This document shows positions 3,479 to 29,320 of a stretch of DNA of 37,395 nt, piece after piece (the first letter of the stretch is position 1; each line of letters begins with the position of its first letter). The translations under genes and the position numbers were made by a program. The DNA comes from a virus: IMG/VR virus record IMGVR_UViG_3300034135_000033, positions 1 to 37,395 of that record, one strand, 5' to 3'. Below the pieces are notes generated by a model. It was not told the origin of the DNA and searched no databases. It saw only the letters and a program-made list of their open reading frames with translations.

Positions 3479-3494
3479 TGTCCGCTGGCGGACA
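3479..3494 (-). promoter_or_regulatory. Late-operator palindrome copy 1 (lysis cassette)
   Basis: TGTCCG-CTGG-CGGACA on the plus strand: a perfect 6-bp dyad with a 4-base spacer, identical in all 16 bases to the copy at 18345. It lies just past the stop of the 248-residue tail gene and before the lysin gene. There is no T-run on either strand, so a terminator is unlikely. By analogy with Mu Mor/C sites it is a candidate activator site for a lysis promoter. Confidence 0.6.
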
Positions 3495-3495
3495 T

Positions 3496-4242
3496 CTAGA
3501 GCCACTCTTTCATGGAGAGCGCCCAGCGCGTCATCTCGGGCGCTTGGCGCTGGTAGGGCTCGAAACGCTCGAAGAGGCCGTAGTGGATCTCTTCGTTCAG
3601 CCCTGCCGTCTCGCCGGTCTGCTCGACGACCAGGATGGGCTTGCTCTTGCCCACGCCCCAGGTGATCGCCCACAGCGCCCGGCGCATCACCGCGGTGAGG
3701 TCGACGAAGGTCCACTCGAGGCGGGCCTTCACAACGCCCTCGCCGATACCAAAGCCGCCATCGCGCAGCTCGTCAACCGCGCTGGTGTCGATCGGCTCCC
3801 GGCCAGAGCCGAACTCATAGGGCCAGACGAAGGCTTTCGCGAGCATCAGGATCCCTGCCTGCATCGGGGTCACACCAGCTTGTGTCGGGGTGATCCTGAA
3901 GTAGCGGCTGTTCACCGGCACGGGGAGGAAGGCCAGCGCATGGTGGCGCGGCCCGAGGCTATCGGCCGCCCGCATCAACGTCCCGGCCGGCATGATAGAG
4001 GTCAAGCCGGTGCCGAGGCCGGTTGCCTTCTCTATCCCCCAGGTCGCGCCTGCCGCCGCGTTCGTGAAGCCGAGGAAGAAGGTGTCCACATCCTGGGCGG
4101 CGCCCAGGTCGATGTCGATCGGGTACTGGCCCGCCACACCCGTCGCCCAAACCTCCTTCGGGCTCGGAGTGAGAAGGTTGGCGGCGCCGGTGCCGCCTAC
4201 GGTCGGCGTCGCGGCGATCGGGAGACCCCGCGCGATGATCAT
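3496..4242 (-). CDS. Tail-associated protein (putative)
   Basis: This 248-residue protein is the last gene of the tail block before the lysis promoter. It has no signal peptide or membrane helix. The N-terminal part reads as a beta-rich ligand-type domain (IDLGAAQDVDTFFLGFTN, then RYFRITPT), similar in feel to discoidin-like or galactose-binding sandwiches found at phage tail tips. The second part (about 130-248) is Trp-rich. The start overlaps the preceding stop by four bases, giving a tightly coupled operon of four small tail genes. The family is not recognised; a tail-tip or host-recognition role is inferred from position. Confidence 0.75.
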   Translation of the reverse strand: MIIARGLPIAATPTVGGTGAANLLTPSPKEVWATGVAGQYPIDIDLGAAQDVDTFFLGFTNAAAGATWGIEKATGLGTGLTSIMPAGTLMRAADSLGPRHHALAFLPVPVNSRYFRITPTQAGVTPMQAGILMLAKAFVWPYEFGSGREPIDTSAVDELRDGGFGIGEGVVKARLEWTFVDLTAVMRRALWAITWGVGKSKPILVVEQTGETAGLNEEIHYGLFERFEPYQRQAPEMTRWALSMKEWL

Positions 4243-4601
4243 GTCAGCTTCCTCAGAACGGTCAGGGTGGTCTGGTCGACGGCCGCCAGCTCCTCGACGC
4301 CGATGACGAAGACAACGACGCCGGCGTCATAGCCAAGCCGGTCCGCCTGGATGGTGACCGGCTGACCCAGCAGATCCGCGCGGAGGCCGTCGACCAGGTG
4401 AGTGTCGACCACGAGCGGCCCGGCGAGGAAGGCGACCTGGCGCGCGGCCTCGGCAGTGGCGCCGGCGAGGAGGGCGAGCGGGCTCTGGATCTCCGTGGAT
4501 CGCCCGAGGGCGCCGAACTTCGCCGCCACGCCAGCGTCATCCGCCGACGCGAACTTGACGCCTTCCTTCAGCCAGCGGGCAAATTCCAGATCGACGGTCA
4601 T
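4239..4601 (-). CDS. Small tail-region protein (120 aa)
   Basis: This is a 120-residue soluble protein with a helical N-terminus and an alanine-rich centre followed by regularly spaced beta-strand patterns (PVTIQADRLGYDAG, VVVFVIGVEEL). It overlaps both neighbours by four bases, so translation is coupled. It probably contributes to the tail tip, or is a chaperone for the larger tail proteins next to it, but I do not recognise the family. Confidence 0.7.
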   Translation of the reverse strand: MTVDLEFARWLKEGVKFASADDAGVAAKFGALGRSTEIQSPLALLAGATAEAARQVAFLAGPLVVDTHLVDGLRADLLGQPVTIQADRLGYDAGVVVFVIGVEELAAVDQTTLTVLRKLT

Positions 4602-5011
4602 GGGGACGACGGCGCTCCTCCGGAGCCAGCGGCGGCCGGCGCGAACTGCGGCAGAGGATCCGGGTCCTCCTGCTCAGGCTGAACGTAGCCGGGCTCGCCC
4701 ATGTCTCGGCGGAGGGCGTTCGCCATCTTCTCGCCGCGACCGTCGCGGAAGAAGAGAAGCCCCAGCTCGCGGTCGTAGAAGAGGGCAATGCCGGCCATCA
4801 CTTCTTGGGCGGCCGGAAGTGCGATGCCGGGGTGGGTGCGTTGCGCCCACATCGCCTCCAGGATGGCGGCGTTCCGGTCCTGATTGTTGTGTCCCGGCCC
4901 GTCCCAGCGGGCGACTTCGGTGCGCACCTCCTCGGGCAGCTGACCCCAGCTTTCGCGAAGCAAGGCGTTAAGATCGCGGCTCGGCTCTGCAAGGTCGTTG
5001 TAGATCTTCAT
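4598..5011 (-). CDS. Small tail-region protein (137 aa)
   Basis: This 137-residue acidic protein has a helical N-terminal two thirds (for example AAILEAMWAQRTHPG) and a Pro/Ala/Gly-rich C-terminal tail. The start at 5011 is supported by GGAGGAG eight bases upstream; the longer reading frame would extend into the previous gene. It lies in the operon between the tail-tip genes, but no family is recognised. Confidence 0.7.
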   Translation of the reverse strand: MKIYNDLAEPSRDLNALLRESWGQLPEEVRTEVARWDGPGHNNQDRNAAILEAMWAQRTHPGIALPAAQEVMAGIALFYDRELGLLFFRDGRGEKMANALRRDMGEPGYVQPEQEDPDPLPQFAPAAAGSGGAPSSP

Positions 5012-5016
5012 TGGGT

Positions 5017-5454
5017 TCACTCCTCCCTCTTCAGCTTCTCGAACGGCAGCTTCACCGGCGCTCCGCTCCACCCATCGCGCAGCGCCTTCGCCTTCTCGGC
5101 TGCGGCGACGATTCTATCGACGCTTGCGGCTCGGGCGACGATCAGCGCTGCCGCCTCCTTCTCCAGGTCGAAGTCCTCGGCTGCCGCGTCCGCCGCCGTG
5201 AAGGTGCGGCCGATCGAGTCCACGATCGGCAGTCCGTCCTCGGCGCGGAGCGCTTGGCCTTGCTCGTCCACCGGCGAGACGGAGACGCTTAGGGCGAACT
5301 GGCCGCTCTGCACGTCCGTCTCTCCGTCCGGCGCTTTCACCGCGCCCGGCCGTCCGAAGCCGATCTGCGCCTTCACCTTGCGGCCGCTTGCCATCTCGAA
5401 AAACTGGTAATGGGCGCCCTGCCCGTTCGGACGGGCGATGCTTTTGAGGCTCAT
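5017..5454 (-). CDS. Tail-region protein (145 aa)
   Basis: This 145-residue protein has a beta-rich N-terminal half and a strongly helical, alanine-rich second half (about residues 88-130) that may be coiled coil. The start at 5454 follows GAGGAG. The gene is ten bases after the large repeat-containing tail protein and is probably a tail or fibre accessory protein. No homologous family is recognised. Confidence 0.7.
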   Translation of the reverse strand: MSLKSIARPNGQGAHYQFFEMASGRKVKAQIGFGRPGAVKAPDGETDVQSGQFALSVSVSPVDEQGQALRAEDGLPIVDSIGRTFTAADAAAEDFDLEKEAAALIVARAASVDRIVAAAEKAKALRDGWSGAPVKLPFEKLKREE

Positions 5455-5464
5455 GTCTCGCTCC

Positions 5465-7597
5465 TCATGGGATTTGGCCGCCGCCGCCGCCGCCGCCATA
5501 GCCGCCACCGCCGAAGCCACCGCCGCCGCCGCCCGAGGACGGCGCCGCTGGAGTGATGCCTTCCGCGACGCGGTAGCGTCCGGGATAGAGGAGGTTGCTC
5601 GGGTCGGCGGTGATGCCGATGGTGGGCGTCGCCACGCCCACCAAGTTCACATCGTCGATATAGGCCCACCACGGGGAGGCGTGGGTCCAGGTCGTCTGCG
5701 TTGCCCCGTAGCTGAGCGGCTGCGGACCGCTCGGCCCGGCGACCTTGCGGACATGGCCCGGCAGGTTGATTGTGACGTTCGACGCGCCGTTCGTGTAGGC
5801 CGGGACTAGATTGGTGGCGTCGGTGAGGCCGATGATCGCCTGCGTGTTGTAGACCAGCGGGTCGGACACCCGCCCGGCGGTGTTGAGCTTGGCGATGCGC
5901 CCCTTGTTGGTGATGCGAGCGTCGTCCTCCAAGGAGACGGCATTCAGAGTCGCGAACGCGCCACGGCCCACGAAGTCCGCCGCCACTCCGAATTGAGTCA
6001 CCGTGTTGTTATTGGTGAGGGTGAAGCTGTTGGTGTCGTCCGCGATCTGAGCGGCTGCGACGCCGAGTTGCAGGTAGCCGGTGGTATCGAACCTCAGGTC
6101 CGCCTTGTTCTTCGTCGCAAGGGCGCCGCGGCCGGCGAAGTCCGCCGCCATGCCGAATTGAGTGACCGTATTGTTATTGGTGAGGGTGAAGCTGTTGGAC
6201 TCGTCCGCGATCTGAGCGGCTGCAACGCCGAGTTGCAGGTAGCCGGTTGTGTCGAACCTCAGGTCCGCTTTGTTCTTCGTCGCGAGGGCGCCGCGACCGG
6301 CGAAGTCCGCCGCAATGCCGAGAGGCGTCTTGAAGTTGAGCAGGGTCGCGGTTGCCCCGCCCAGCGCCTCCTTCAGAGTGGGCGAGCCGAAATACAGATA
6401 ATCCTCGGTCGCCACGTCTCCGAGGCCCGCGACGTCCCCCACCTGCAGGATGGCCGAGATCTCCGCGTCGCCGTGGGTGCGGTAGCTCCGCTGATAGCCG
6501 AGCCGCCGCGTCTTCACCGGCGCAAACGAGCGGAGCCGGCGGACATCCCTGGATGTCAGCGAGGCCACCGGCGCCGCAAAGGTCCATTCGCGCAAGCGGA
6601 TGGTCCCGGCCGGCTCGAGCAGCCAGAGAAGCGACACGCCCAGGAGGAGGCGGTCTAGTGCCTGGGCGGTCGTCTCGCTGTCGTCGCCGACGTGCAAGCC
6701 GGCCGCGGCCGCCCGAACGGCCGCCATGGCGCTGACGTTGGCGATCGCCGGCCCGGCACCGGCCGCCGCCACCCTCGCGGCGATCTCCGGCGCCGTCTCG
6801 ACGTAGCCGGTGCCGATCTCACCGCGGACGTCCGCGGTGAGCGGCCCGACAGGTTGCGCCCACCACTTCGCACAGCAGATCGAGGGCGCGACGACGCCGC
6901 TGCCGCCAACGCAGACGGCGGCCTTCAGCGCAGTAAGCGTGGCGGCGACCGAGCCCTGCCAAGCGAGTACGGTCACCGCCGGCGCGGCGTCCCTGCCCTT
7001 GTCGCGGACGATGTCGATCGCCTGCCAGGGAAAGGCCAGGTCGCCGAACTCGAAGACGTTGTTGGCCTTGTCGAGGACTCGCCCCTCGACGTTGTAGGCG
7101 CGGCCCCAGGTGCGCCGCTTCACCCGGCCGGCCGCCTCCGTTCCTCCCTCAACGCCTCCGCTGCCGGCGAAGCGAGCGGTGATCAGCGGCCGGTCAACCG
7201 CTTTCGACAGGTCAACCAACGTCAGGACCGAGCCGTGATCTGCCTCTGCGGCGTTGGCGATCGTGCCGGTGAGAACGGTCGAGTACGGACCTCCCTCCGG
7301 ACCGGTTTCCACGGTGACCGCGGCATCATTCCAGAGCAGCCCGCCCAGCTCGTCCAGCAGCGCCCTCTGCGCGGGCTTGAAGACGAGGGCGCCAGTGGTG
7401 GGCACAGTGCCGCCGGTCCAGCCATTCTCGTCGAAACCCAGCTCCGCCTTGAACCTCGGCTCGGCCACGACTCCCGCCCGGTAGTGGTTGCCGCCGCGGT
7501 AGAAGGCTGTCGACGCGCCCCCGCCGGCCAGGCGGACCGTTGTGGTCGCCCCCGTCGCCGCCACCCTCGGCGTTGCCGTGATCCAGACGACGCGCAT
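5465..7597 (-). CDS. Large tail-tip/baseplate-type protein with tandem repeats
   Basis: This 710-residue protein is encoded directly after the tape measure, the usual place for distal tail and tip proteins of siphoviruses. The N-terminal 400 residues form a globular region with many beta-strand patterns. Then come two almost identical 55-residue repeats (each with GRGALATKNKADLRFD and NSFTLTNNNTVTQF) and a third, diverged partial copy; the repeats look fibre-like. The C-terminus ends in a glycine run (GGGGGGFGGGGYGGGGG). The ATG at 7597 overlaps the tape-measure stop. A TTG immediately before it would add one residue. The protein probably joins the tail tube to receptor-binding parts. It is not clearly related to Mu tail proteins, in line with a non-contractile tail. 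Confidence 0.8.
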   Translation of the reverse strand: MRVVWITATPRVAATGATTTVRLAGGGASTAFYRGGNHYRAGVVAEPRFKAELGFDENGWTGGTVPTTGALVFKPAQRALLDELGGLLWNDAAVTVETGPEGGPYSTVLTGTIANAAEADHGSVLTLVDLSKAVDRPLITARFAGSGGVEGGTEAAGRVKRRTWGRAYNVEGRVLDKANNVFEFGDLAFPWQAIDIVRDKGRDAAPAVTVLAWQGSVAATLTALKAAVCVGGSGVVAPSICCAKWWAQPVGPLTADVRGEIGTGYVETAPEIAARVAAAGAGPAIANVSAMAAVRAAAAGLHVGDDSETTAQALDRLLLGVSLLWLLEPAGTIRLREWTFAAPVASLTSRDVRRLRSFAPVKTRRLGYQRSYRTHGDAEISAILQVGDVAGLGDVATEDYLYFGSPTLKEALGGATATLLNFKTPLGIAADFAGRGALATKNKADLRFDTTGYLQLGVAAAQIADESNSFTLTNNNTVTQFGMAADFAGRGALATKNKADLRFDTTGYLQLGVAAAQIADDTNSFTLTNNNTVTQFGVAADFVGRGAFATLNAVSLEDDARITNKGRIAKLNTAGRVSDPLVYNTQAIIGLTDATNLVPAYTNGASNVTINLPGHVRKVAGPSGPQPLSYGATQTTWTHASPWWAYIDDVNLVGVATPTIGITADPSNLLYPGRYRVAEGITPAAPSSGGGGGGFGGGGYGGGGGGGQIP
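5988..6317 (-). repeat. Tandem 165-bp coding repeat (two full copies)
   Basis: Copies at 5988-6152 and 6153-6317 differ at only a few positions, and a diverged partial copy is visible at about 5942-5987. The unit is 55 codons, so the frame is kept. Most differences between the copies are silent or conservative (for example ESNS versus DTNS). Confidence 0.85.
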
Positions 7598-10500
7598 CAA
7601 TAGGGCCTCACGTTGACGGAGCGGCCGACGATGATGCTGCCCGCGCTGCCACGCCCGCCGACCGCGGCGACGGCCGCGCCCGCGGCCTCGAGCCGCTTGA
7701 TCGCGTTGAGAGTCTCGGCAGCGATGTCGTTGCCCTCGTTGAGCAGGCCGTTGGTCGCGTCGAGCTTCTTGTTGGTGTCGAGCGCGGCGGCCTGGGCGGC
7801 GCGGATCCGCTCGTTCTCGATCGTGATAATCTCCTCGGCGGCCGACCGAGTGGTTTCGCGATCGGTGGCGAACTCCGGCCCGGCCGTGCCGAAGGCATCT
7901 TTGCTGAGGGAGAGCAGCTGGCGACGCAGGCCGGCAACCTTGTCGCCCGCGCCCTCGACCCCGGCCTTGGCGTCCGTCTCCGCCTTCGCGATCTCGACCA
8001 GGAGCGCCTTGCGCTGGTCGACGGCCGAGCCCTCAAAGAGGTCGCCGAAGTTCATGCTGTCGAGCAGGCTCTGCAGCTGCCCGATCTGGCTCTGGATGAT
8101 GCGGTCGAAGATCTCGGTCCGCTGCTTCCCGTTGACCTCCTCGAGCTTGACCAGGTCGAAGCCGTACTTGGCAGCGACCCGCCGCCGCTCGGCCGCCACC
8201 AGCTCGAAGTCCCTGAACGCCTTCTTCAATGCCCCGTCAGCGCCGCTGAGCAGCAGCTCGAGGTCCTGGACCTTCAATGCCTCCTGCAGTGCCTTGTTGA
8301 TGTCCGTCGAGCTTTGGAGGGCCTTCTGGACCGCTGCCGACAGACCGGAGATGACGCCGTCCTTGATCGCATCGAGGGCGGCGAACGCGATGGCCGACGC
8401 CTGGTCCTCGCCGAAGTCGATCGCCCCCTTCTTCGTCTTCACGTTGCCGCGGCCGCTGGTGTCGACGCGGTAGGCGCCGTCCTTGATTCCAACCGAGACG
8501 CTCGGCGCGCCGGTCACCTGACCGCCGAGCTGCGAGGCGATCGATTGCACGGCGTCGATGATGCTGTTGGCCGCGGCCGACGCCGCCGTCCTGAATTGAG
8601 CATTGTTGCCGCCGGTGCCGGAGACGCCCAGCTCGCCGTTCGAGACGCCGATCGTCGCGGACCCGGCCTTTGAGGATTTGAGCATTCCGCCCACCACGCT
8701 GCCGAGGAGCCCGCCGACGATTTCGCCGACGATGGGCGGGAGCCCCACGGCCGACGCGGCAAAGCCCCCGACCGCGCCGCCGATCTGGCCGCCGGTATTG
8801 GAGCCCTTCACGCCCAGCATCTTCGAGACGCCGGCCACCATGCCGCCGACCGCGGCGCCCTCGAGTCCCTTGCTCGTATATTTGCCGATCGCCTTGGCCG
8901 CGTTCTCTCCCAGGACGCCCTTGGCGAGCTTCTCGATCGTGTAGTCGAAGAAAGCGACCGGGTCCTTGGGGATCCTTGAGCCGGTGACGACGATGTCCCC
9001 CTCCCCAGCGCCCTCGGCCATGGCGTCCGCGATCGAGTCCCAAGCCCCGCCCGGCGCCGTCGCGCCGCCGCCCGCCACGCCAGCGGTGGCCCTCTCCGCC
9101 GCAGACCCCAAACGAAGAATGGAGGCCGAAGCCTTGTCCACCGCGTCGGCCATTCGCTCGGCTGCGTCCTGCGCCACGTCGGCGCCGGTGATTTGGTCCT
9201 CAAGCTTGCGGAACGTGTCGCCGAACAGCTTCTCCTCGAGGACCCGGCCCTGCAGCTGCTTGAAGGAGGCGATCAGGCGCTTCGGCGCGTCCTCGAGCGC
9301 CTCGAGGTCGCCGGAGAGGATGTCGGTGACCAGCGACCGCATGTCGCCCAGGGTGTCGAGGTACTTCTGCTGCTTCTCGCGGTTGACCTCGAACTGCCGC
9401 TCCTCGGCCCGGAGAGCCTGGACCGTGGCGAGGATGGCATCCTTCCGCTCGAGCGACAGCTCCGTGCCGTTCTTCTCGAGGCCGATGATAATGCGGAGCG
9501 CGTCGGCCTCGTCCTGGTGGCCGCCAGTGATCAGCCGCTGGATCTCGAGCGCCTGCCCCTGGCTCTCGATGAACTCGTTATAGGGGCGATCGAGGCCGTC
9601 CTGGATGGCTTGGCGGGCTTCCCCGATCTGCTGGATGAAGCCCTCGAGGCCCGGCGGCTGCTGCTTGGAGAAATCGGCTGCGACCTGGTCGAGCGCCCGG
9701 AAGGCGATTCGCGCCTTGTCGGCGAGCGTCTCCGACTTCTCGAAGGGCTCCGCTATCCCGGCGATCAAGCCCGCCCGGATCTGCGTTCGCGCCGTCTCGG
9801 CGTCGGCGAGCAGCTCTTGCATGTTGAGCGGCTTCTTGCGGCGGATGTCGTCGACCAGGTCGTCGAGCGCGGCCATGGCCTTGCTGGCTTCCCCGATGAT
9901 CTTCGGCTGATCATCATCGATGAACCGGGCGGCTATGCCCGCGATCTTGTCGGCCGCGTCCTCGCCGAACTCCTCGAGGCGATCGGTCTTGCCGCCGCTG
10001 CCACGAGCCCTCGGCGTCTTCTTCCTCGCGCCGCCGCCCGATCGCCGGAGCTCCGGCGCGAGCGATCCGCCATCCAGCGACTTGTCGATCAGGCCGGCGA
10101 CGATGTCGTTCTGCTCGGCTGTGGCGGTGTCGATCAACGCCTGGCGCCAATCTTTCGACGACACGCCAGTCAGGTTCCGGACGACGTCGGTATTTCGCGA
10201 CGTGGCCTCCCTGAATTCCGTCTGCTGAAGCGCTCGCTCGATTGCCTTCGAGCGCTCCTCGGCGGACTTGGCCCCCTCGATGGCCCGGATGTGTTTCCCG
10301 ACCGCTTCGTCCTGGGCAGCATCCGCCGCGTCGCCGCGCCCACTGGACCAGCCGAGGAAGCGACGGAGGCCGCCTTTCACCCCGCCTCCGTCGTTCTGCA
10401 TGTCGCTGAACGTCTCGCCCGCGGAGGCCCGCTTTGCCATCGCGTCGGCCCTGAGGTTGATCGCCGTCAGCCGCGCATTCGCTATCAGGAGTGCGTTCTG

Positions 10501-12004: not shown

Positions 12005-12018
12005 TTGATCGTCCCCCC

Positions 12019-12960
12019 TTACTTCGCGGTCAGAAGCAGGTCGTCCTGCCCGTTGCGGATGTTGAGGCCGACCGAGATGTCCAGCATCATCACGTCGTCC
12101 TCCTCGGTCCTGGTGATCTTCAGGATCTGGAGGTAACTGGTGTCGACCTGGATGATGTTGCCCGCGACCGTGCCGTGGACGAGCTGCGTCGCGATCTCCG
12201 TCCCGACGTCGAGCGTCGTGAAGTAGTTCTTCGACGCGAGAGCCGGCGCTTCGCAGATGACGCGGCCGGTCATGGCGTGGTCGCCGCGCTGAATGTAGTT
12301 GGCGCCGACCAGGTTCCGCGGCTTGACTTCGGCATTGGCGTCCAGCGTGAACTGCTTCAGCACGGCCGCGAAGCCGTCCAGAAGGAAGTCGGTGTTGGCG
12401 GTATTGACCTCGAGCGGCTCGAGCCACCGGGTGAAATCCGGGTTGCCGACCGGCGCCGTGCCGTCGATCGCCGGGCTCGGCGGCAGGATGGCCTGCATGT
12501 CGACCTTGGCAAAGGGCACCGCCCCGGCCGTGAAGTCGACGCCGAACGTGCCGCGCGATCCGAGCCCGCGAGCGCGCTGACCTCCCATCCAATGATGACA
12601 GGTGCCGGCGGACAGGGCGGCCCCCGCGGCGGCGAACTTCTGCTCCGCCTTGGTCGCCGCCGTCAGGACCGGCGCAGCCATGCCGCAGCACTCCAGATGC
12701 TCCATCCAGGGCGCAGCCGTGCCCGCGGCGCCGGATCCCGCCATCTCCAGCTCATAGCCGAAGGCGGTGCGCCGGTTCGTGGGCGAGGACTTGCGGCGGC
12801 CGCGACTCGGCGTGTCGAGCTTCCGCTCGAGCTGGTCGACGACGATCGGCTCCGCGCTGAAGTTGCGAGTGACCACAGCATTGGCAGCGGTCGTCGGCGC
12901 CGCGTCGGTGCCGTAGGTCGTCTCTTTCTTGAAGAGGATCGTCTTGAGGGTGTCGGGCAT
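12019..12960 (-). CDS. Major tail tube protein
   Basis: This 313-residue protein begins LKTILFKKETTYGTDAAPT, the typical opening of siphovirus tail tube proteins of this type (a fixed N-terminal arm followed by the beta-sandwich core). Strand-rich segments with conserved Gly/Asn turns continue to the C-terminus (ITRTEEDDVMMLDISVGLNIRNG). It precedes the frameshifting chaperone and tape measure, the standard tail order. There is no sheath gene beside it, which shows that the tail is non-contractile, unlike Mu. Confidence 0.85.
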   Translation of the reverse strand: MPDTLKTILFKKETTYGTDAAPTTAANAVVTRNFSAEPIVVDQLERKLDTPSRGRRKSSPTNRRTAFGYELEMAGSGAAGTAAPWMEHLECCGMAAPVLTAATKAEQKFAAAGAALSAGTCHHWMGGQRARGLGSRGTFGVDFTAGAVPFAKVDMQAILPPSPAIDGTAPVGNPDFTRWLEPLEVNTANTDFLLDGFAAVLKQFTLDANAEVKPRNLVGANYIQRGDHAMTGRVICEAPALASKNYFTTLDVGTEIATQLVHGTVAGNIIQVDTSYLQILKITRTEEDDVMMLDISVGLNIRNGQDDLLLTAK

Positions 12961-12972
12961 CGATGCAGCTCC

Positions 12973-13320
12973 TTACTCGGCGCCGCCGGCGGGCTCGCCA
13001 GCGCTGTCGGTCCAGTCTTCGGGATGGGTGAGCGGGTCCTTTTTCCCCCGCTCGGTCAGTGCGCGGATCCGGGCCGGTCCGGAAAGGGGGAGGCCGAACG
13101 CGTCGAGCTGCCGGCCGGTAGCCTGGTCGACCGGCCGCGGCCGCGTCGGCTCCTCCTGCGTCGTCTGCTTGCGGGCCTCGAGCGCGGCCTCGATCAGCGC
13201 GATGATGGCGGGGTTGGTCGCGTCGGCCGGCACCTCGATCTCGAGGCCGGCTGCGGTCTCGAGCAGCTCGGGCTTCGTCTGCTTGCTCAGCGGCTTGGTC
13301 GAGAGGGGGGTGTCGGTCAT
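12973..13320 (-). CDS. Small protein with SAP/HeH-like N-terminal motif
   Basis: This 115-residue protein has an N-terminal helix-extended-helix pattern (LSKQTKPELLETAAGLEIEV, then ATNPAIIALIEAALEA). This resembles the Rho-N/SAP/HeH modules often carried by small phage head and tail proteins. The C-terminal half is polar and proline-rich. It lies between the tail terminator and the tail tube. A TGTCCG-N4-CGGACA palindrome lies 61-76 bases upstream inside the preceding gene, so an internal late promoter is possible. Confidence 0.7.
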   Translation of the reverse strand: MTDTPLSTKPLSKQTKPELLETAAGLEIEVPADATNPAIIALIEAALEARKQTTQEEPTRPRPVDQATGRQLDAFGLPLSGPARIRALTERGKKDPLTHPEDWTDSAGEPAGGAE

Positions 13321-13736
13321 GCGCTTGCTGCCTTCCTGATGTGGCGACCAGTCCTGAAGGTGGTCATCCAGTTGAGTGTATGTCCGTCCACGGACAGAAG
13401 GCGCCCGCGGACGGCCTCACACGCGCGCGAGGCGTCGGGGTGGGTCCAGCCGACCAGGGCGTCGATCGTCCTGCGCTCCTCGGCCTCGAGGTCGTCGGCG
13501 ATCGCTGCCTGGTTGAGCGCGGCCGCCTGCAGCATGTGGATCACGCCGAAGGTTTCGGAGAGGCTCTGGTCGTGGACGCCTATGCGGTTGTTCGGAGTGG
13601 CGTCCCAGCCCTCGGGGACGACGAAGCGGGCCGGGAGCTGAGCTGGCGCCGTCTTCAGACCGGCGAACTCGAGCGCGCCATAAACCCGCCCGAGCTTGGC
13701 CGCCTTCATGCAGTCGACGATCGGGACGAGCCTCAT
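13317..13736 (-). CDS. Tail terminator/tail completion-type protein
   Basis: This 139-residue protein starts MRLVPIVDCMKA, with the helix-strand pattern and length of tail terminator proteins, which cap the tail tube and join it to the head. The segment ARFVVPEGWDATPNN and the following FGVIHMLQA fit the strand content of that group. It lies between the head-tail connector genes and the tail tube. The start at 13736 overlaps the preceding stop by four bases. A candidate late-operator palindrome (13381-13396) lies within its coding sequence. Confidence 0.7.
   Translation of the reverse strand: MRLVPIVDCMKAAKLGRVYGALEFAGLKTAPAQLPARFVVPEGWDATPNNRIGVHDQSLSETFGVIHMLQAAALNQAAIADDLEAEERRTIDALVGWTHPDASRACEAVRGRLLSVDGHTLNWMTTFRTGRHIRKAASA
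13381..13396 (-). promoter_or_regulatory. Late-operator palindrome copy 2 (inside tail terminator gene)
   Basis: TGTCCG-TCCA-CGGACA: the same 6-bp arms and 4-base spacing as the intergenic copies, but inside a gene. The flanking bases differ from the other copies. It may drive an internal promoter for the tail-tube genes or may be a chance codon arrangement. Confidence 0.35.
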
Positions 13737-14020
13737 GCCGGACCTCCGACGGTGCGGCGCGCGTCCAGCGCCTCGAGGAGCGTGGACAGCTTGCAGCCGG
13801 CACAAATGACCGTCGCCGGCGCCACGGTGACGTCGCAGGGCAGGGTCACTTCACTGGCGGTGATCAGTTCGGCCGCGCCGGCAGTGATGACCAGCCCGGC
13901 GATACGGCGACAGATTGTCTTGGTCGCGGCGCTCTCCCGTTCCCAGGATATCGACCGGCCCGCAGGGTAGAGGCCGAGGTGAACGACCTGTGCGAAAACT
14001 TCCTGGAGGTCTCCGGTCAT
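13733..14020 (-). CDS. Head-tail joining region protein (95 aa)
   Basis: This 95-residue protein is coupled by four-base overlaps to both neighbours. It has a helical N-terminus and a beta-rich, cysteine-containing C-terminal half (LPCDVTVAPATVICAGC). The position between the virion morphogenesis (G-like) protein and the tail terminator suggests a neck or joining role, but the family is not recognised. Confidence 0.65.
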   Translation of the reverse strand: MTGDLQEVFAQVVHLGLYPAGRSISWERESAATKTICRRIAGLVITAGAAELITASEVTLPCDVTVAPATVICAGCKLSTLLEALDARRTVGGPA

Positions 14021-14535: not shown

Positions 14536-14536
14536 C

Positions 14537-15480: not shown

Positions 15481-15483
15481 GCC

Positions 15484-16894: not shown

Positions 16895-16905
16895 GCAGCC
16901 CCTGC

Positions 16906-17323: not shown

Positions 17324-17335
17324 ACGGTCGCTTGA

Positions 17336-18307
17336 TCAGCCGCCGACCCGTTTGACGGCCTCGACCAGGGAGAGGCCCGGCTCGGCCGCCTGCAGCTCGT
17401 GCGCCTTGCTGAGGAGGGCCAAGGCCGCCGGGTCGGCCGTGAAGCCGGGAGGCGCGGCGAAGCTGTTGGCGCCGCCCTGGTCCTGGTCGTCGGACGGCGC
17501 AGCCGCCTCGCCGAACTGGATCAGCGGAGCCGAGCCCTCGAACAGCTTCTTGAACGCGGCGACGGGCGCCATCTCGCCATTGCCCTCCCCGAAGCTGACC
17601 GTGGCGGTCGCCTCGAGGTTGTCCATGACGCCGACGAACAGGTCCCTGCCCGCGGGAGCGAGGCGGCCGGTGGCGACGAGCGTCTCCGCGAAGGCGACGT
17701 TGGAGGTGTGGAGCGCCTGGCGGATGGTCGCATTGGCGGTCCGCTCGCGCTCATCGGCGGCGGCCTCGCGGTCGGCGGCATCCTGCAGGCGGCGCGCGAG
17801 GTCCGCCTGCTGCTCGGCAAAGTCGGTGGTGTCTTTTTCCTTGGTCACGGCAGTCTCCGTTTCGGTTTCGATGGTTACGAGCCCCCGCTCGTCTTCCTCT
17901 GCGAAGTGAACGAGGCCGAGGCCCTTCACCGCCGGCGCCGCGGCGCCCAGGAAGCCGACATGCTTCAGCGAGAAGATGCCCGGCTTCGGATTGTGGGGAT
18001 GGTCCGGCGGATAGAAGCTGGCCGAGACCTTCGAGTAGCGGCCGTCGCGGACCGCGTCGGCGAACTCCGGGGCGACCCTCTCGGGGTAGGCGATCAGCTC
18101 GTCGCCCTCGACGGCGAGGCTCCCGACCCAGCCCCAGGCCGGCGCGTCGAGCTTGGGGTGCCCGACGACCAGCGGCGCCGGATCCGTCGCGGCGTCATAG
18201 GCCGCGGCCGACGCCTCGAGGTGGGCGCGGGTGAACTCGAGCGTCGTCCCGTCGACCGCCGTATGGCGCCCGGGCTTGAAGATCCTGATGTGCGGCTTTC
18301 CATCCAT
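17336..18307 (-). CDS. Head maturation protease/scaffold (Mu protein I-like)
   Basis: This 323-residue protein matches the Mu prophage I protein family: a short IRIFKPGRHTAVDG opening, PLVVGHPKLDAPAWGWVGSL, then YSKVSASFYPPDHPHNPKPG and KHVGFLGAAAPAVKGL. His in the GHP motif and Ser in KVSASFY are the likely catalytic residues. The C-terminal half (about 150-323) is helical and acidic, as expected for the scaffold, which in Mu arises from the same region (gpZ). The ATG at 18307 has no clear ribosome site. A longer frame from 18382 would read through the operator palindrome at 18345, so 18307 is preferred. It heads the long left-arm operon. Confidence 0.88.
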   Translation of the reverse strand: MDGKPHIRIFKPGRHTAVDGTTLEFTRAHLEASAAAYDAATDPAPLVVGHPKLDAPAWGWVGSLAVEGDELIAYPERVAPEFADAVRDGRYSKVSASFYPPDHPHNPKPGIFSLKHVGFLGAAAPAVKGLGLVHFAEEDERGLVTIETETETAVTKEKDTTDFAEQQADLARRLQDAADREAAADERERTANATIRQALHTSNVAFAETLVATGRLAPAGRDLFVGVMDNLEATATVSFGEGNGEMAPVAAFKKLFEGSAPLIQFGEAAAPSDDQDQGGANSFAAPPGFTADPAALALLSKAHELQAAEPGLSLVEAVKRVGG

Positions 18308-18344
18308 GCCGCTGTGGTTAAGGGGGGAAAAGGCCCGGAGATGG

Positions 18345-18360
18345 TGTCCGCTGGCGGACA
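18345..18360 (-). promoter_or_regulatory. Late-operator palindrome copy 3 (head/tail operon)
   Basis: TGTCCG-CTGG-CGGACA, centred 45 bases upstream of the protease ATG. Read toward the gene it is followed by CCATCTC, as is the copy at 29305 read toward its own gene, so the two promoters share more than the palindrome. TTAA (18318-18321) lies about 33 bases from the dyad centre and could be the -10. From 18361 to 18585 I see no gene or other clear signal. Confidence 0.65.
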
Positions 18361-18873: not shown

Positions 18874-19004
18874 CCGAGTTCCTCCTGTCCGCAACAATGC
18901 CCGGCTGGCCCGGAAAAATCGAGAGGGACGCAAATTGAGGGTTTCCCTCGGCGGGACCAACTGCCTAGCAGAACGGAACAAACTAGGTCCGATTCGGAGG
19001 TATC

Positions 19005-19286
19005 GTGCGTCGCAAGGTGAAGATGGGGTTCGAGCATCAGCACCGCCGGGAGCCTCGCTTCCGCCTCCCGCCACCTTCCCCCGAGCATCGGGCGGTGTTG
19101 GATCGGCAGCGGACGCGAGATCGCTACCGGGTCATGGTCTTCGCCCGCGCAGTGACGCCCTGGGCGAGCCTTGGCGAGACGCAGCGCGCGGCGATCCGCG
19201 CCGGTCACGGCTCGGTGTGTGAGCAGAGCGGACTGCTCTACATGACGGTGCCGGCGTGGCTGCAGCGCAAGACCATCGATCACTAG
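19005..19286 (+). CDS. Hypothetical basic protein next to the repressor (93 aa)
   Basis: This 93-residue basic protein has a GTG start behind GGAGG with a short spacer. An ATG six codons later (19023) is an alternative. The N-terminal 45 residues are rich in Arg, His and Pro. The remainder includes a helix (SLGETQRAAIRAGHGSV) and a strand-rich end. Its stop overlaps the repressor stop from the other strand within the shared tetramer CTAG, so the two genes converge with no spacer and could interfere by transcription. The family is not recognised. Confidence 0.6.
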   Translation: MRRKVKMGFEHQHRREPRFRLPPPSPEHRAVLDRQRTRDRYRVMVFARAVTPWASLGETQRAAIRAGHGSVCEQSGLLYMTVPAWLQRKTIDH

Positions 19287-19951
19287 GCCGCCACATGGAC
19301 CTTCTCGCTCCAGACAACTGCGCCCAGCAGCTCTAGATCCGCGGCTTCATCGTTCCGATCGACCACGATTGGCTCATATGCCGGGTTGGTGCTGACCAGG
19401 CGGATATTGCGGCCCTGGAACTGGACGCGCTTCACCAGCAGAGCGTCGCCCAGGCGAACCGCGTAGAGGCCGTCGCGTGGATCTCGCCGGCGCCGGTCGA
19501 CCATGACCCAGTCACCGTCGCTTAGCTCGGGCTGCATGCTGTCGCCGACGACGCGCAGCAACTCGAGCTGATCTTCATGACCGAACGATCGGCGGAGCCA
19601 GGAGCGAGGAAACCTCCACAGCGCCTGGGTGGCGGCGTCCCCGGCGATCGAGCCCGCGCCGGCCGCGAGCGTCGGCGTGAGCATTGGCAGGCCGACCAGG
19701 TCCTCATCCGCTTCGCTCGGAACGCCTTGGCCGCGGCCGGTCAGGATCCAATCAAGGGAGACTCCGACCTTCGCGGCGATCGCCGCCACGCGAGAGATTC
19801 CAGGATCGCCGTCGCCGGCGAGTATATTGCCGAGGGTGTTCTTATGCATCCCCAGCTGCTCGGCCAGCTTTCGCTGCGAGCCCCAGCCATCGGCTGCGAG
19901 CTTCAGGCGCTGAGCCGCCTCCCGCGTCCATGCTGATGTGAGATCGCCCAC
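19283..19951 (-). CDS. c: LexA/CI-like repressor with S24 peptidase domain
   Basis: This 222-residue repressor has an N-terminal helix-turn-helix (about residues 24-70, SQRKLAEQLGMHKNTLGNIL) and a C-terminal S24 domain. GDSMQPELSDGD supplies the nucleophile Ser138, and the later DALLVKRV gives the general base Lys174. Ala-Gly pairs at 97-100 are the likely self-cleavage site. This predicts SOS (RecA)-stimulated induction, unlike Mu c, which is a Clp/Lon-controlled protein without a peptidase. The GTG at 19951, eight bases after AAAGGGA, gives a normal N-terminus; longer starts would run through the operators. It faces the early operon and should bind the CACA-N6-TGTG sites. Confidence 0.92.
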   Translation of the reverse strand: MGDLTSAWTREAAQRLKLAADGWGSQRKLAEQLGMHKNTLGNILAGDGDPGISRVAAIAAKVGVSLDWILTGRGQGVPSEADEDLVGLPMLTPTLAAGAGSIAGDAATQALWRFPRSWLRRSFGHEDQLELLRVVGDSMQPELSDGDWVMVDRRRRDPRDGLYAVRLGDALLVKRVQFQGRNIRLVSTNPAYEPIVVDRNDEAADLELLGAVVWSEKVHVAA

Positions 19952-19967
19952 GGCAGTCCCTTTAAAT

Positions 19968-20013
19968 TGTGACTTGACACATTCTATTGTGACAAGGCAC
20001 ACAACCAATTGTG
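19968..20013. promoter_or_regulatory. Operator pair O1-O2 and early promoter region
   Basis: Two dyads CACA-N6-TGTG lie at 19978-19991 and 20000-20013, 22 bp apart, with a half site TGTG at 19968-19971 exactly 20 bp before O1's TGTG. A perfect -35 hexamer TTGACA (19974-19979) overlaps O1 and points toward the Ner-like gene; the matching -10 is weak. O2 overlaps the GTG start of that gene. Bound repressor would block both the early promoter and probably its own. Confidence 0.75.
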
Positions 20014-20319
20014 ACAGACGAAGCCCAAATCGCCGCCCTGGACGACTGGCATCCAGAGGACATCAAGGCCGCGGTGCGGAAGCAGGGAAGCACCCTCGCC
20101 GCCATCGGCCGCCTCGCCGGCATGTCCCGTCAGTCGATCGCTCTCGCCCTGGTGAGGCCCAACGAGAAAGGTGAGGATGCGATTGCTCGCTACCTCGGCC
20201 TGAAAGCTCAAGTCATATGGCCCTCCCGTTACCACGCTAACGGACGTCGCCGGCGACCCCAGCCCGCCGAGAACTATCATCCGGAGCCTCGCTTCGCCGT
20301 TTGCGAGGCTCAAATATGA
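20011..20319 (+). CDS. ner: Ner-like regulator (Nlp/SfsB-type helix-turn-helix)
   Basis: This 102-residue DNA-binding protein belongs to the Ner/Nlp group. WHPEDIKAAVRKQGSTLAAIGRLAGMSRQSIALAL is the characteristic helix-turn-helix with a leading tryptophan, and RYLGLKAQVIWPSRYH closes the domain. In Mu, Ner lowers early and repressor transcription during lytic growth. The first gene of the early operon is its normal place. The only plausible start is GTG at 20011, because an in-frame stop lies at 19990 and no ATG occurs until the middle of the domain. That GTG is part of operator O2, and the ribosome site is poor, so a very short leader is likely. Confidence 0.9.
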   Translation: MTDEAQIAALDDWHPEDIKAAVRKQGSTLAAIGRLAGMSRQSIALALVRPNEKGEDAIARYLGLKAQVIWPSRYHANGRRRRPQPAENYHPEPRFAVCEAQI

Positions 20320-20358
20320 TTTTTGGATACCAGAGCGGGATTAGCCTGTCTCGCTTCT

Positions 20359-20402
20359 CACATTTTACTGTGTCTGAAATAGAGACGGCACATTTTGTTG
20401 TG
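20359..20402. promoter_or_regulatory. Operator pair O3-O4 before the transposase gene
   Basis: Two more CACA-N6-TGTG dyads, at 20359-20372 and 20389-20402, are 30 bp apart and lie just before the transposase ATG at 20417. With O1-O2 they bracket the Ner-like gene at about 370 bp, a spacing suited to looping. In Mu the repressor operators double as the transpositional enhancer bound by the N-terminus of MuA; these sites are candidates for the same use. Confidence 0.7.
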
Positions 20403-20416
20403 ACGGCGGCCAGTTG

Positions 20417-24823: not shown

Positions 24824-24825
24824 GC

Positions 24826-25834: not shown

Positions 25835-25845
25835 AAGGAACCGCG

Positions 25846-26475: not shown

Positions 26476-26726
26476 CCCGCGGCGCTTTCTACGACCGGCT
26501 CATCGCGGCGGCCAGCCAGGGCGCCGAGGGAACCGCAATCCTCCTTCGTCACGCCACCGAAGCCGACGAGCCCTATGGGACGTACAACGGCGAGGAGCCC
26601 ATCGAGAAGCTCTGCGACGCCGCCAAGCTGGCGATCGAGGCCGGCGGCGAGGACGCCCTCAAGGACCCCGAGCTGAACCAGGTCTACGGGGCCCTGCAGC
26701 GGTTCCTCGAGGGATGGATGGGATGA
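26472..26726 (+). CDS. Hypothetical protein after gam (84 aa)
   Basis: This 84-residue acidic, mostly helical protein begins with ATG overlapping the gam stop by four bases. It has patches such as ILLRHATEADEPYGTYNGEE and KLAIEAGGEDALKDPELNQV. No family is recognised; the position suggests an accessory in replication or host inhibition. Confidence 0.65.
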   Translation: MTRGAFYDRLIAAASQGAEGTAILLRHATEADEPYGTYNGEEPIEKLCDAAKLAIEAGGEDALKDPELNQVYGALQRFLEGWMG

Positions 26727-26926
26727 CCTGGGCTCGCCAGCTCATGGCTGGGGTCCCGCGGGACCGCCGCATCCTCCTTGAGGACGGCGCCGGCAACTTC
26801 GCCGTGGCGAGCTGGCGCGCGGTGAAGGCCCGTTCGCCAGCCTGGGTGGTCTCGGCGGGCCGCGGCGTGGTCGTCACCTTCGAAGACCCCGCCGCCTGGT
26901 ACGACCTACCGGAGGCGCGGCCATGA
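26723..26926 (+). CDS. Small hypothetical protein (67 aa)
   Basis: This 67-residue basic protein is coupled to both neighbours by ATGA overlaps. It reads as a small beta-rich domain (RILLEDGAGNFAVASWRAV, WVVSAGRGVVVTFEDP). No homologous family is recognised. Gene status rests on the uninterrupted chain of overlapping start and stop codons. Confidence 0.6.
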   Translation: MTWARQLMAGVPRDRRILLEDGAGNFAVASWRAVKARSPAWVVSAGRGVVVTFEDPAAWYDLPEARP

Positions 26927-27267
26927 CGCCCGAGCAGCTGCGCCTCCTCGACTTCATCCGCGAGCAGATCGCCGACAACGGGCTTGCGCCGAGCTACCCC
27001 GAGATGGAGCGCCTTCTCGGCAGGAGCCGCTCGAGCATTCACCGGCTCGTGACGGGCCTTGTCCACAAGGGCCTGCTGATCCGGCACCGCAACCAGGCGC
27101 GGGGCCTGACCCTGCCGAACGAGGCGAATATCGCCGGCATCCCCACAGACCGCCTCGAGGCGGAGCTCCGCCGCCGCGGCCGACAGCCGGCCTGGTCCCG
27201 AGAGTTCCTCGCCGGCTTCGCCCGGCCGGAATTGCCCCTTCATCGTCCGGAGGACAGTCATGGCTAG
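26923..27267 (+). CDS. LexA-type winged-helix DNA-binding protein
   Basis: This 114-residue protein matches the LexA DNA-binding domain: TPEQLRLLDFIREQIADNG, then APSYPEMERLLGRSRSSIHR and LVTGLVHKGLLIRHRNQARG. The peptidase half is absent, so it cannot self-cleave. It could bind host LexA sites and affect the SOS response, or act as a phage transcription factor. The SOS link is notable because the phage repressor itself looks RecA-sensitive. Confidence 0.82.
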   Translation: MTPEQLRLLDFIREQIADNGLAPSYPEMERLLGRSRSSIHRLVTGLVHKGLLIRHRNQARGLTLPNEANIAGIPTDRLEAELRRRGRQPAWSREFLAGFARPELPLHRPEDSHG

Positions 27268-27499
27268 AGAACGGCGGAGGCGCCCGCTTCCCCGCGCTGA
27301 CCAGCTGCGGCGGCACCGCGAGGAGATGCAGTTCGCGCTGGTCAATAACTGCTCGCTCGAGGAGGCCCGACGCCGGCTCGCCAGCTATCGGGAACATCTG
27401 CCACGGCTCGCGGCGCCCCTCGAGGACGTCGTAGCCGAGCTGCCGCTGGCGGCCGCCGAGACGGCCGATCGCCCCCTCCAATGGTGGCAGCGGGACTGA
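27260..27499 (+). CDS. Small basic helical protein (79 aa)
   Basis: This 79-residue protein starts with a strongly basic stretch (ARERRRRPLPRADQLRRHRE), followed by a helical segment NCSLEEARRRLASYRE. It overlaps the LexA-like gene by eight bases, and its stop overlaps the GemA start. The function is not recognised; RNA or DNA binding is plausible from charge alone. Confidence 0.65.
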   Translation: MARERRRRPLPRADQLRRHREEMQFALVNNCSLEEARRRLASYREHLPRLAAPLEDVVAELPLAAAETADRPLQWWQRD

Positions 27500-28212
27500 T
27501 GGCGAAAGCGTTCAGCTCCATCGCTGCCAAGGCGCTTCAATCGGCTGCCGGCAAGTCCGACAGCCGGGCGAAGCTGATGGGCGCGATCCGCGCCGCCTGC
27601 AATCGCAAGCAGATCTCCGACGACGACCGCAAGGCGATCCAGCTCCGGATAACCGGCGTCGCCTCGATGGCCGACATGGAGATCGGCGACCTCGCCAAGC
27701 TGCTCGACCACCTCAACAGCGACTGGAAGGGGCCGATGGGTCACCGCGCCTACGTCGGCAAGACGAAGGCGCTTTGGTGGAGCCTCTACTGGCTAGGCGC
27801 GATCAACGAGCCCGGCGACGCCGCCCTGGACGCCTTCGTGAAGCGGCAGACCGGCAAGAGCTACCTCCGCTTCCTCGGGCACCGAGAGGCGTTCCGGGTG
27901 ATCGAGGCGCTGAAAGCATGGGCGGCTCGGGAAGACGTCATCTGGCCGACCGAGGAGAAGCTCCAAGAGCGCCAGCGCACCGACCCCGGCGTCGACATGG
28001 CCCAGCTCGAGCGTCACGCCGTCCTCGAGGCGCTCTCCGTCCGCCTGCGGCGCTTCGGCGCGATGAGCTACTTCTACGCGCCCTACTGCGAGGCGGCGCT
28101 GAAGCTCGCCCCCAACCACTTCACCTGGTCACCCGTCGAGCTGGACGCCTGCATCCGCCTCCTCGGCAAGCGCCTCCGCCGCGAGCTGGGCAAGAGGGAG
28201 GCGAGCCAGTGA
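27499..28212 (+). CDS. gemA: GemA-like regulatory protein (Mu gp16-like)
   Basis: This 237-residue protein fits the Mu GemA/DUF1018 family: a leading helix KLMGAIRAACNRKQISDDDR, the IQLRITGVASMADMEIGDL segment, and KALWWSLYWLGAINEPGDAA with YLRFLGHREAFRVIEALKAW. Mu GemA affects host DNA gyrase and late functions. It lies in the middle region just before the Mor-type activator, as in Mu. The start is the ATG at 27499, whose first base is the last base of the preceding stop. It is somewhat longer than typical members because of a C-terminal helical extension. Confidence 0.85.
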   Translation: MAKAFSSIAAKALQSAAGKSDSRAKLMGAIRAACNRKQISDDDRKAIQLRITGVASMADMEIGDLAKLLDHLNSDWKGPMGHRAYVGKTKALWWSLYWLGAINEPGDAALDAFVKRQTGKSYLRFLGHREAFRVIEALKAWAAREDVIWPTEEKLQERQRTDPGVDMAQLERHAVLEALSVRLRRFGAMSYFYAPYCEAALKLAPNHFTWSPVELDACIRLLGKRLRRELGKREASQ

Positions 28213-28787
28213 GCCTGTGGCCCTTCGGTCAGTTGTCGATGTTCGGCTACAGGGTGATCCTTGCCGATCCGGCATGGGCCTTCGAAAACTACTCCGAGGC
28301 TGGTGAAGGCCGGAATGCCAACCAGCACTATCCGACGATGACGCCGGACCAGGTGGCCGATCTCCCGGTCGGCCACCTCGCCGCGCGCGACTGCGCGCTA
28401 TTCCTCTGGGTGACTGACCCTCTGCTCGACCGAGGGATCGAGGTGCTGAAGCATTGGGGCTTTCGCTACACCACCGTCGCCTTCACTTGGGCGAAGCGGA
28501 CGTCGACGGACGCCAGCTGGCATATGGGGACGGGGTACTACACCCGCGCCAACCCGGAATCCTGTCTGCTCGGGATCGCCGGCGAGATGGGCCTGCCGAA
28601 AAGTCGTGCTGTCCGCCAACTGATCGTCGAGCCGGTCCGGGAGCACAGCCGCAAGCCGGACCGCATCCGCCCCGACATCGAGGCGCTGTTTGATGGCCCT
28701 TACGTCGAGCTGTTCGCCCGCAGCCAGCGTGACGGCTGGGATTGTTGGGGGAACGAGACAGGCCGATTCGCCGAGGCGGCCGAATGA
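28209..28787 (+). CDS. MT-A70-type adenine-N6 DNA methyltransferase
   Basis: This 192-residue methyltransferase of the MT-A70 family has the catalytic motif as DPAW (residues 20-23, normally DPPW). Conserved segments HYPTMTPDQVADLPV, ALFLWVTDPLL, GFRYTTVAFTWAK and the C-terminal HSRKPDRI with VELFARSQRDGWDCWGNE follow. Such phage enzymes modify adenine in the phage genome and can protect against restriction. The GTG start overlaps the GemA stop. It retains an N-terminal GQLSMFG segment (Gln8 to Phe12) similar to beta-clamp-binding peptides. Starting at the ATG at 28239 would remove it but leave the catalytic core whole. Confidence 0.9.
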   Translation: MSLWPFGQLSMFGYRVILADPAWAFENYSEAGEGRNANQHYPTMTPDQVADLPVGHLAARDCALFLWVTDPLLDRGIEVLKHWGFRYTTVAFTWAKRTSTDASWHMGTGYYTRANPESCLLGIAGEMGLPKSRAVRQLIVEPVREHSRKPDRIRPDIEALFDGPYVELFARSQRDGWDCWGNETGRFAEAAE

Positions 28788-29314
28788 GCAAGTACGGCGA
28801 CGACTTCCGCAAGGGCGCCTCGCTGGTGATCCCGGAGGACATTCAGCCGGGGCCGGGCTGGACGGAGCAGATGCTCGAGCTGGCGGACCACATCGGGAAC
28901 CGCGCGACTCTGCAGCTGGTAGAGCGGTTCGGCGGTGAGCAGCTCTACGTCCCGGTAGATCCGCACTCGGGGGACGTAGCGGCCCGGATCCGGGAGGTCA
29001 TCGGCGCTCGAGCGACGGAAATCCTCTGCAAGGTCTATCGCCGGGAGTTCATCGAGATCCCGGCCGCCAAATACGCGCTCGCCAGAGCCCAGCGGCATGA
29101 CATCATTGCCGCAGTGCGATCCGGCGATATAAGCGTCAGCCGAGCAGCACGGATCCTCGGCACGTCGAGGACCTATCTGTCCTTCCTCGTCAACCAAACC
29201 GACGAGGGGACCGAGGGCGCGGGATGGTCCGCGTCCAGGTCCGGCACGGTCCGACTGCCAGGCCAGCTCGACCTGTTCGGGGAGCCCGAGGACGAGGAAG
29301 ACTCTGTCCGCTGA
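28784..29314 (+). CDS. mor: Mor-type middle/late transcription activator with clamp-binding-like tail
   Basis: This 176-residue protein contains the Mor/C family core: WTEQMLELADHIGNRATLQL, then LVERFGGEQLYVPV (about residues 45-58). A helix-turn-helix follows at about 107-136 (IIAAVRSGDISVSRAARILG, TSRTYLSFLV). Mor and C of Mu activate middle and late promoters by binding dyads near -43 and contacting RNA polymerase. This is the only such protein here, so it probably serves all late promoters. A flexible tail after residue 137 ends with GQLDLFGEPEDEED, where QLDLF (161-165) matches the bacterial beta-clamp-binding consensus. The first late-operator palindrome overlaps the end of this gene. 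Confidence 0.88.
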   Translation: MSKYGDDFRKGASLVIPEDIQPGPGWTEQMLELADHIGNRATLQLVERFGGEQLYVPVDPHSGDVAARIREVIGARATEILCKVYRREFIEIPAAKYALARAQRHDIIAAVRSGDISVSRAARILGTSRTYLSFLVNQTDEGTEGAGWSASRSGTVRLPGQLDLFGEPEDEEDSVR

Positions 29315-29320
29315 CGGACA
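29305..29320 (+). promoter_or_regulatory. Late-operator palindrome copy 4 (right arm)
   Basis: TGTCCG-CTGA-CGGACA overlaps the last codons of the Mor-like gene and lies 72 bases (from its centre) before the right-arm late genes. CAATAA (29345-29350), about 33 bases past the dyad centre, fits a -10 if the site is centred near -43, as for Mor and C. The flank CCATCTC is shared with the copy at 18345. Confidence 0.65.

Follow-up and report, generated by a model that had tools for sequence, protein, structure and literature searches.

A palindrome at four late units of a Mu-like phage as the candidate operator of a single Mor/C-type activator

The IMG/VR record IMGVR_UViG_3300034135_000033, taken whole (37,395 bases, hereafter the window), represents a Mu-like transposable phage in which the palindrome (dyad) TGTCCG-N4-CGGACA occurs exactly four times. 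The locus raises the question of what these dyads do and which protein reads them. They are probably activator sites of late promoters served by one Mor/C-type activator in a single tier, without the second activator C of phage Mu, and we assign this reading, which is drawn from sequence comparison, a probability of about 0.83. It is based on the sites themselves, their positional conservation, the spacing between dyad and -10 element, arm changes that extend through whole regulons, and a single Mor/C match. The protein encoded at 28784 to 29314 is the putative binder of the dyads, and its activating role and the transcript starts are predicted.

Four exact dyads at the heads of the late units

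The window holds four exact copies of the dyad and no more (Table 1). Among 400 second-order Markov simulations, none contained any 6-4-6 dyad family at four copies, and 11 contained one at three copies. With up to three mismatches allowed, the pattern is not enriched in the window (24 found versus 26.45 expected). The four sites are named here for their loci: MOR, behind the Mor-type gene; PRO, before the head protease; TAIL, before the tail genes; and LYS, before the endolysin gene. A sequence-only reading of this DNA had placed the copies at 3479, 18345, and 29305 before the lysis, protease/capsid, and packaging arms, respectively; the coordinates were confirmed and the loci are kept in relatives. 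It had also described two copies as identical across all 16 bases, and these are the copies at 3479 and 18345. The fourth copy, at 13381, was noted there as lying inside a tail gene, apart from the three units. It does lie inside a tail-region gene, but it is no stray, being kept together with its -10 element in relatives and reading toward the tail genes, and the late units number four instead of three. The heptamer CCATCTC, said to be shared downstream of two copies, is present behind the sites at 18345 (minus strand) and 29305 (plus strand), but its sharing looks incidental, as it stands behind none of the 70 relatives' sites examined.

Conservation of the dyad in relatives

Relatives (designated G001 and so on) were gathered via the Mor-type protein, the terminase, the protease, and the exact 16-mer. 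For the first set, 48 records, covering part of the loci gathered, were screened, of which 19 had a Mor match and 15 were used, with G023, G031, G043, and G045 left out. The second set comprised the top 21 by terminase identity of 160 listed loci, of which 19 had a Mor match and 16 were used; G053 and G061 (same matches as G062 and G070) and also G067 were left out. The exact 16-mer search of IMG/VR returned 22 stretches; L010 is a relative, as is the single record that holds both L012 and L022. G007 (contained in G052), G014 (near-identical to G013), and G054b (a second prophage) were removed before the counts, and the pairs G011/G012, G009/G039, G063/G064, and G060/G066 (20-mers in common) were retained despite their kinship.

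Intervals of about 200 bp were preset at the four loci in 29 genomes, including the window, giving 103 intervals that cover 1.87% of 1.106 Mb. They were anchored before the DUF2730 gene (MOR), before the protease gene (PRO), at the 3' end of the counterpart of the gene at 13317 (TAIL), and behind that of the gene at 3496 (LYS); in G015 and three genomes without a DUF2730 match, the MOR interval was anchored on the next gene. Of the 29 exact GTCCG-N4-CGGAC sites in these genomes, 25 fall inside the preset intervals, the placing of which was guided by an earlier look at part of the relatives, compared with 0.5 expected (p 2e-40), and 21 of 25 do so when the window's own four are subtracted. The GTCCG arm has 30 distinct permutations, and no site of the 29 others falls in the intervals of the 29 genomes. 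Outside the intervals lie one exact GTCCG site just behind mor in G002 (29497), another in G011, and two more in G069. With at most one mismatch, 46 of 125 sites lie in the intervals (2.2 expected), and with at most two, 72 of 1151 (20 expected). Perfect 6-4-6 dyads of any arm show a mild excess in the intervals (37 versus 19.3, p 2e-4, 18 layouts tried); the signal resides in the specific arms. In G001, all four sites stand at homologous places, one of them with a single mismatch. Thus a scan of relatives before homologous genes, which the sequence-only reading had suggested, finds that the dyad recurs there or that another dyad is common to that genome's loci.

Apparent replacement of the dyad across the proposed regulon

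Several relatives carry a different dyad at the same loci. G009 has AGCCG-N4-CGGCT at all four; G062 has GTCCC arms, two exact and two with one mismatch; G063 and G064 have GTRAG arms at two and three loci, respectively; G066 has ATGCG arms at three loci; and G055 has CCCCG-like arms. The asymmetric pair GTCCG..CGGAAG is present at all four loci of both G041 and G068. In a blind search, all 1024 five-base arms were compared with random intervals of the same genome in 26 genomes. A shared dyad was found at p<0.05 in 12 of 26; when the window is left out, the figure is 11 of 25, with a combined p of 6e-14. The arm recovered was GTCCG in the window, G001, G002, G011, G013, G039, G054a, and G056, GTCCG tied with TTCCG in G041 and G068, AGCCG in G009, and GTCCC in G062. 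By this comparison, the GTCCG, AGCCG, and GTCCC types appear to stand independently as operators, and further types are likely, on weaker evidence. In addition, the outer dyad bases, which were not used in finding the sites, agree within genomes (0.584 versus 0.345 when shuffled; p 0.0005, the lowest value that 2000 shuffles allow).

The clearest pair is G009 and G039, for which 15 proteins, without cI and Dam, were compared. Nine of the 15 are at least 90% identical, including MuA, the terminase large subunit (TerL), and portal (95%), protease (92%), capsid (97%), DUF2730 (99%), and the gene behind DUF2730 (100%). Identities are lower for the Gp16-like protein (88%), g12019 (86%), MuB (85%), MuF (77%), Mor (74%), and Ner (64%). 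G039 carries GTCCG dyads at 4/4 loci, the LYS copy with one mismatch, where G009 carries AGCCG. At PRO and LYS, the flanks of the two phages align closely, and the difference is the stretch from dyad to spacer. At TAIL, G039 retains an AGCCG dyad within the gene, and downstream of it comes another segment, which holds a GTCCG dyad and repeats the gene-end sequence; from this relic we infer that the change in G039 ran from AGCCG to GTCCG. G009 and G015 share 84% identity in Mor, and the recognition helix of G015 equals the TSRSYLGYLVNK of G009 save one flanking residue; at the DUF2730 place, G015 has AGCCG-TTGG-CGGCT, with CTGACAATGTGA spaced from it as elsewhere.

Promoter geometry

The distance from dyad to promoter was read from 74 sites in 27 genomes, each with at most one mismatch from the arm assigned to its genome; intervals without such a site were omitted. 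In the four CGGAAG genomes, GTCCG-N4-CGGAC matches were accepted too, the MOR row of G055 is probably a wrong pick, and the MOR interval of G002 was reset by hand after a site was spotted just outside the preset one. In 67 of the 74 sites, an A occupies offset 26 behind the 16-mer (background 0.125), at four non-homologous loci: 20/23 at PRO, 17/19 at MOR, 15/15 at TAIL, and 15/17 at LYS. Sites within one locus share ancestry, so the concordance among the four loci weighs most. The base preceding this A is T in 44 of the 74. A -35 element in the same sites matches no better than in shuffled sequence. The A at a fixed offset implies a constant distance from dyad to -10 element, as at the Mu middle promoter Pm. 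If the conserved A is position -11, transcription is predicted to start at offset 37, which would place the dyad at -52 to -37 with its centre near -44.5. The sequence-only reading had expected dyad centres about 43 bases from the transcription starts; at the level of sequence, the predicted value lies close to this and to the -43.5 of Mu Pm.

The start codon of the protease lies at offset 37 from the dyad in 15 of 23 sites, at 38 in 5, at 36 in 2, and at 39 in 1. An ATG at offsets 36 to 39 in all 23 sites leads to the prediction that the protease mRNA is leaderless or nearly so, which the position of the predicted start suggests.

A Mor/C-type protein as the candidate binder

The profile phrog_836 is matched by 29/29 members of the clade. 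In hhalign comparisons, the clade aligned with nine Mor/C proteins at Prob 89.9 and E 1.7e-6 over 110 columns, and with Mu Mor and C alone at Prob 57.7 and E 1e-4 over 50 columns. On the basis of the phrog_836 match and this profile comparison, the protein encoded at 28784 to 29314 is assigned to the Mor/C family. Its predicted structural model (pLDDT 79.9) contains a helix-turn-helix at about residues 96 to 138. As had been noticed from the sequence, this gene is the sole Mor/C-type match in the window and directly precedes the 29305 dyad, which overlaps its stop codon. Of the 15 related records searched, 14 also have one match; the exception is an entire bacterial genome with three matches divided between two contigs, a second contig carrying two of them. 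As a separate observation, contig C12 of G054 (43594-44641) carries two tandem Mor-type genes beside a protease gene in an apparent other prophage of Sphingomonas sp. SRS2.

Among genomes, operator distance tracks the distance between Mor recognition helices (r 0.37, p 0.007), also when the rest of Mor is partialled out (r 0.35, p 0.009). For cI, ner, MuA, MuB, TerL, and the protease, no correlation with operator distance reaches 0.05. The lone Mor/C matches and this covariation support the single-activator late regulon proposed in the sequence-only reading.

The mechanism that we propose is as follows. The Mor/C-type protein, judged by its gene place, would be made early, and a dimer of it would occupy the 16-bp dyad, from about -52 to -37. 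The bound dimer would substitute for the absent -35 element and recruit the host RNA polymerase, placing it at a -10 element whose A sits 26 nucleotides behind the dyad. Four promoters would be driven in this way, those of the DUF2730/terminase/portal/MuF/Dam unit, the head protease, the tail genes, and the endolysin. The Mor and C of Mu would thus be one protein here, the middle tier would be gone, and one activator would start the whole late programme.

Points against this reading and alternative explanations

A number of findings weigh against this reading. The -10 elements at the LYS and TAIL sites of the window are poor. The window protein scores below the cut-off of the Pfam profile PF08765 (Mor), with 16.6 of 24.9 bits, and 7/29 clade members match that profile at E<0.01. 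Searches of the PDB with its model gave no strong match; the listed rows are generic helix-turn-helix proteins, the best being the Trp repressor (Z 5.7). That no Mor structure is among the matches listed by Foldseek and a second structure search carries no weight. Separately, the best hit in a profile search of solved structures (E 0.0011) is by name not a regulator, and a tblastn search of the Mor-type protein against a phage collection gave nothing at 1e-5. Operator distance also correlates with the Gp16-like neighbour of mor (r 0.22, p 0.0075) and weakly with g24425 (r 0.24, p 0.04), so linkage may account for part of the Mor signal. Between G009 and G039, the Ner, MuF, and MuB proteins diverge as well, and this pair alone therefore fails to single out Mor. 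The blind search gave p>=0.05 in 14/25 relatives (G003, G008, G016, G052, G055, G058, G059, G060, G063, G064, G065, G066, G069, and G070). No convincing dyad is shared by the loci of G016 or by those of G058, which have only half-symmetric 16-mers correctly spaced from the start of the protease. The 4-nucleotide spacer, used as a control, is also slightly concerted within genomes (0.432 versus 0.371, p 0.016).

Of the alternatives, operators of a lysogeny repressor, by which cI or Ner would silence the late genes in the prophage, survive best, and we consider even these improbable. Dyads of 16 bp are frequent for such repressors, cI and Ner are both encoded in the window, and Ner is just 64% identical between G009 and G039, phages with differing dyads. 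However, the cI-ner region has TTGTGAC repeats instead and no exact TGTCCG dyad, and operator distance is correlated neither with cI (r 0.12, p 0.11, n=25) nor with ner (r 0.03, p 0.41, n=21). The Ner of G009 is also about as distant from those of other GTCCG phages (69% identical to G001 and 68% to G010); since Ner is about as far from these and is untied to the operator overall, Mor is the better partner of the dyad. Moreover, a constant 26-nucleotide spacing to a -10 element without a -35 element is the geometry of an activator. The TTGTGAC-type repeats, located around cI and ner and before the transposase gene (19960-20020 and 20330-20405), are probably early operators.

Binding by a host-encoded regulator is a still poorer candidate. 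Nothing here speaks directly against a host protein, but phages of one bacterial order use differing dyads, and such a regulator leaves unexplained why the closely related G009 and G039 carry different ones. It is least probable of all that the dyads are RNA hairpins, terminators, or processing sites behind upstream genes, for although two window copies lie at stop codons and the stem is G+C rich, no T run follows the window copies, the TAIL copy is inside a coding sequence, the dyad positions are fixed relative to the downstream -10 element, and the asymmetric GTCCG..CGGAAG arms at all sites of G041 and G068 would weaken a stem.

Features and genome organization

The dyads, their predicted -10 elements, and the genes of the four units are listed in Table 1, in which the matching of the window units to Mu Plys, PI, and PP is presumed from their place.

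Table 1. Sites and genes of the proposed late regulon (positions in the window)
Feature	Position	Strand	Remarks
MOR dyad, TGTCCGCTGACGGACA	29305..29320	+	Pm-like place; overlaps stop of Mor-type gene; before DUF2730/terminase/portal arm
PRO dyad (PI-like)	18345..18360	-	Before head protease/capsid arm
TAIL dyad (PP-like)	13381..13396	-	Within small gene near its 3' end, before tail genes
LYS dyad (Plys-like)	3479..3494	-	One base behind stop of gene 3496-4242, before endolysin
MOR -10-like element, CAATAA	29345..29350	+	Offset 25-30; A = 29346 (offset 26); predicted start near 29357
PRO -10-like element, TAACCA	18315..18320	-	Offset 25-30; predicted start ~18308, adjoining ATG at 18307
TAIL -10-like element, weak	13351..13356	-	Offset 25-30; TTCAGGA here, TTTAGGA in many relatives
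LYS -10-like element, weak, GACAAC	3449..3454	-	Offset 25-30; predicted start ~3442
Mor/C-type activator (176 amino acids), proposed binder	28784..29314	+	phrog_836, E 1.1e-19
DUF2730 protein (releasin family), first gene of MOR unit	29384..29785	+	PF10805, E 1.8e-7
Head maturation protease, first gene of PRO unit	17336..18307	-	phrog_976, E 3.4e-85
Small tail-region gene, start uncertain	~13317-13772	-	Carries TAIL dyad in coding sequence
Tail-unit gene behind TAIL site	12019..12960	-	Conserved in clade
Endolysin, first gene of LYS unit	2052..3398	-	phrog_181, E 2.6e-64

The middle of the window holds cI (19283-20008), ner, a MuA-like transposase gene, and a MuB-like gene. On the plus strand, an arm extends to mor and on through DUF2730, gp27, terminase, portal, MuF, and Dam; on the minus strand, the other arm comprises the protease and capsid genes, the tail genes, and the endolysin gene. 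The labels MuA, MuB, capsid, tail, terminase large subunit, portal, and MuF were given by gene order and resemblance. The layout is divergent, with an inverted capsid-tail-lysis arm and a transposase region placed mid-record. It is common to 25/26 relatives whose map spans both arms (G014 being nearly a copy of G013); the exception is G041, which is collinear as in Mu. The gene at 5465-7600 contains two copies and part of a third of a 165-bp unit (5949-6321). Dyads like TGTCCG-N4-CGGACA also occur in tandem arrays on the viral contigs L005, L017, and L024. The host of the window phage is probably a Sphingomonas-type bacterium: the top 10 named genome records among the terminase relatives comprise 9 with Sphingomonadales names, counting Pacificimonas, which we take to belong there, and 1 Thermomonas bin.

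Comparison with Mu and significance

According to excerpts of published accounts, Mu Pm has 5-bp repeats with a 6-bp spacer in a dyad at -51 to -36, centred at -43.5 (PMC4287176), and the sites described here resemble it in having a 16-bp dyad upstream of a -10 element without a -35 element and a promoter that starts within the end of mor (PMC4287176 and PMC4390567). They differ from Pm in their 5- to 6-bp arms, 4-bp spacer, and predicted centre at -44.5. The Mu late promoters Plys, PI, PP, and Pmom have dyads bound by C, a relative of Mor (excerpts of PMC4287176), and in the window, too, the dyad precedes several late units. In Mu, Mor leaves the late promoters unactivated and these require C as a second protein, whereas in the window phage one site recurs at each of the four late units and no C-like gene was found. 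In the Mu record, mor and Pm are followed by three small genes and C, then by Plys with the lysis genes; DUF2730 (releasin, gp25) lies further on. In the window, which has one Mor/C match and in which no separate C gene was found, the dyad and DUF2730 come immediately after mor. Most simply, this would mean that C and the middle tier are lacking and that Mor acts directly on all late promoters. PHROG 836 comprises late transcriptional activators, and the clade belongs to it by its matches. A single match is usual elsewhere, since 34 of the 40 rows listed for Mu Mor (of 61 records) have one place, and a single activator as such is therefore not unique. What is new here is the mapped regulon, its operator, and the replacement of the operator within the clade. 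Among the open-licence papers listed by the searches made, none was seen to describe an operator or regulon for this clade.

For this group of transposable phages, the results define a late regulon for which the activator, the operator, and their spacing to the promoter are predicted, and they suggest that the cascade of Mu has been cut to one tier. They also offer activator-operator pairs that vary naturally, in one case between close relatives, for the study of the Mor/C recognition code and of regulon evolution. It is conceivable, at rather less than even odds in our judgment, that the late activator and its operator are interchangeable specificity alleles, with a new Mor allele being acquired and the late operators replaced to match, as G009 and G039 suggest. 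If true, this would keep the late programmes of co-resident prophages from cross-firing, and would do the same for satellites that borrow the activator of a helper, as a late-gene counterpart of immunity groups.

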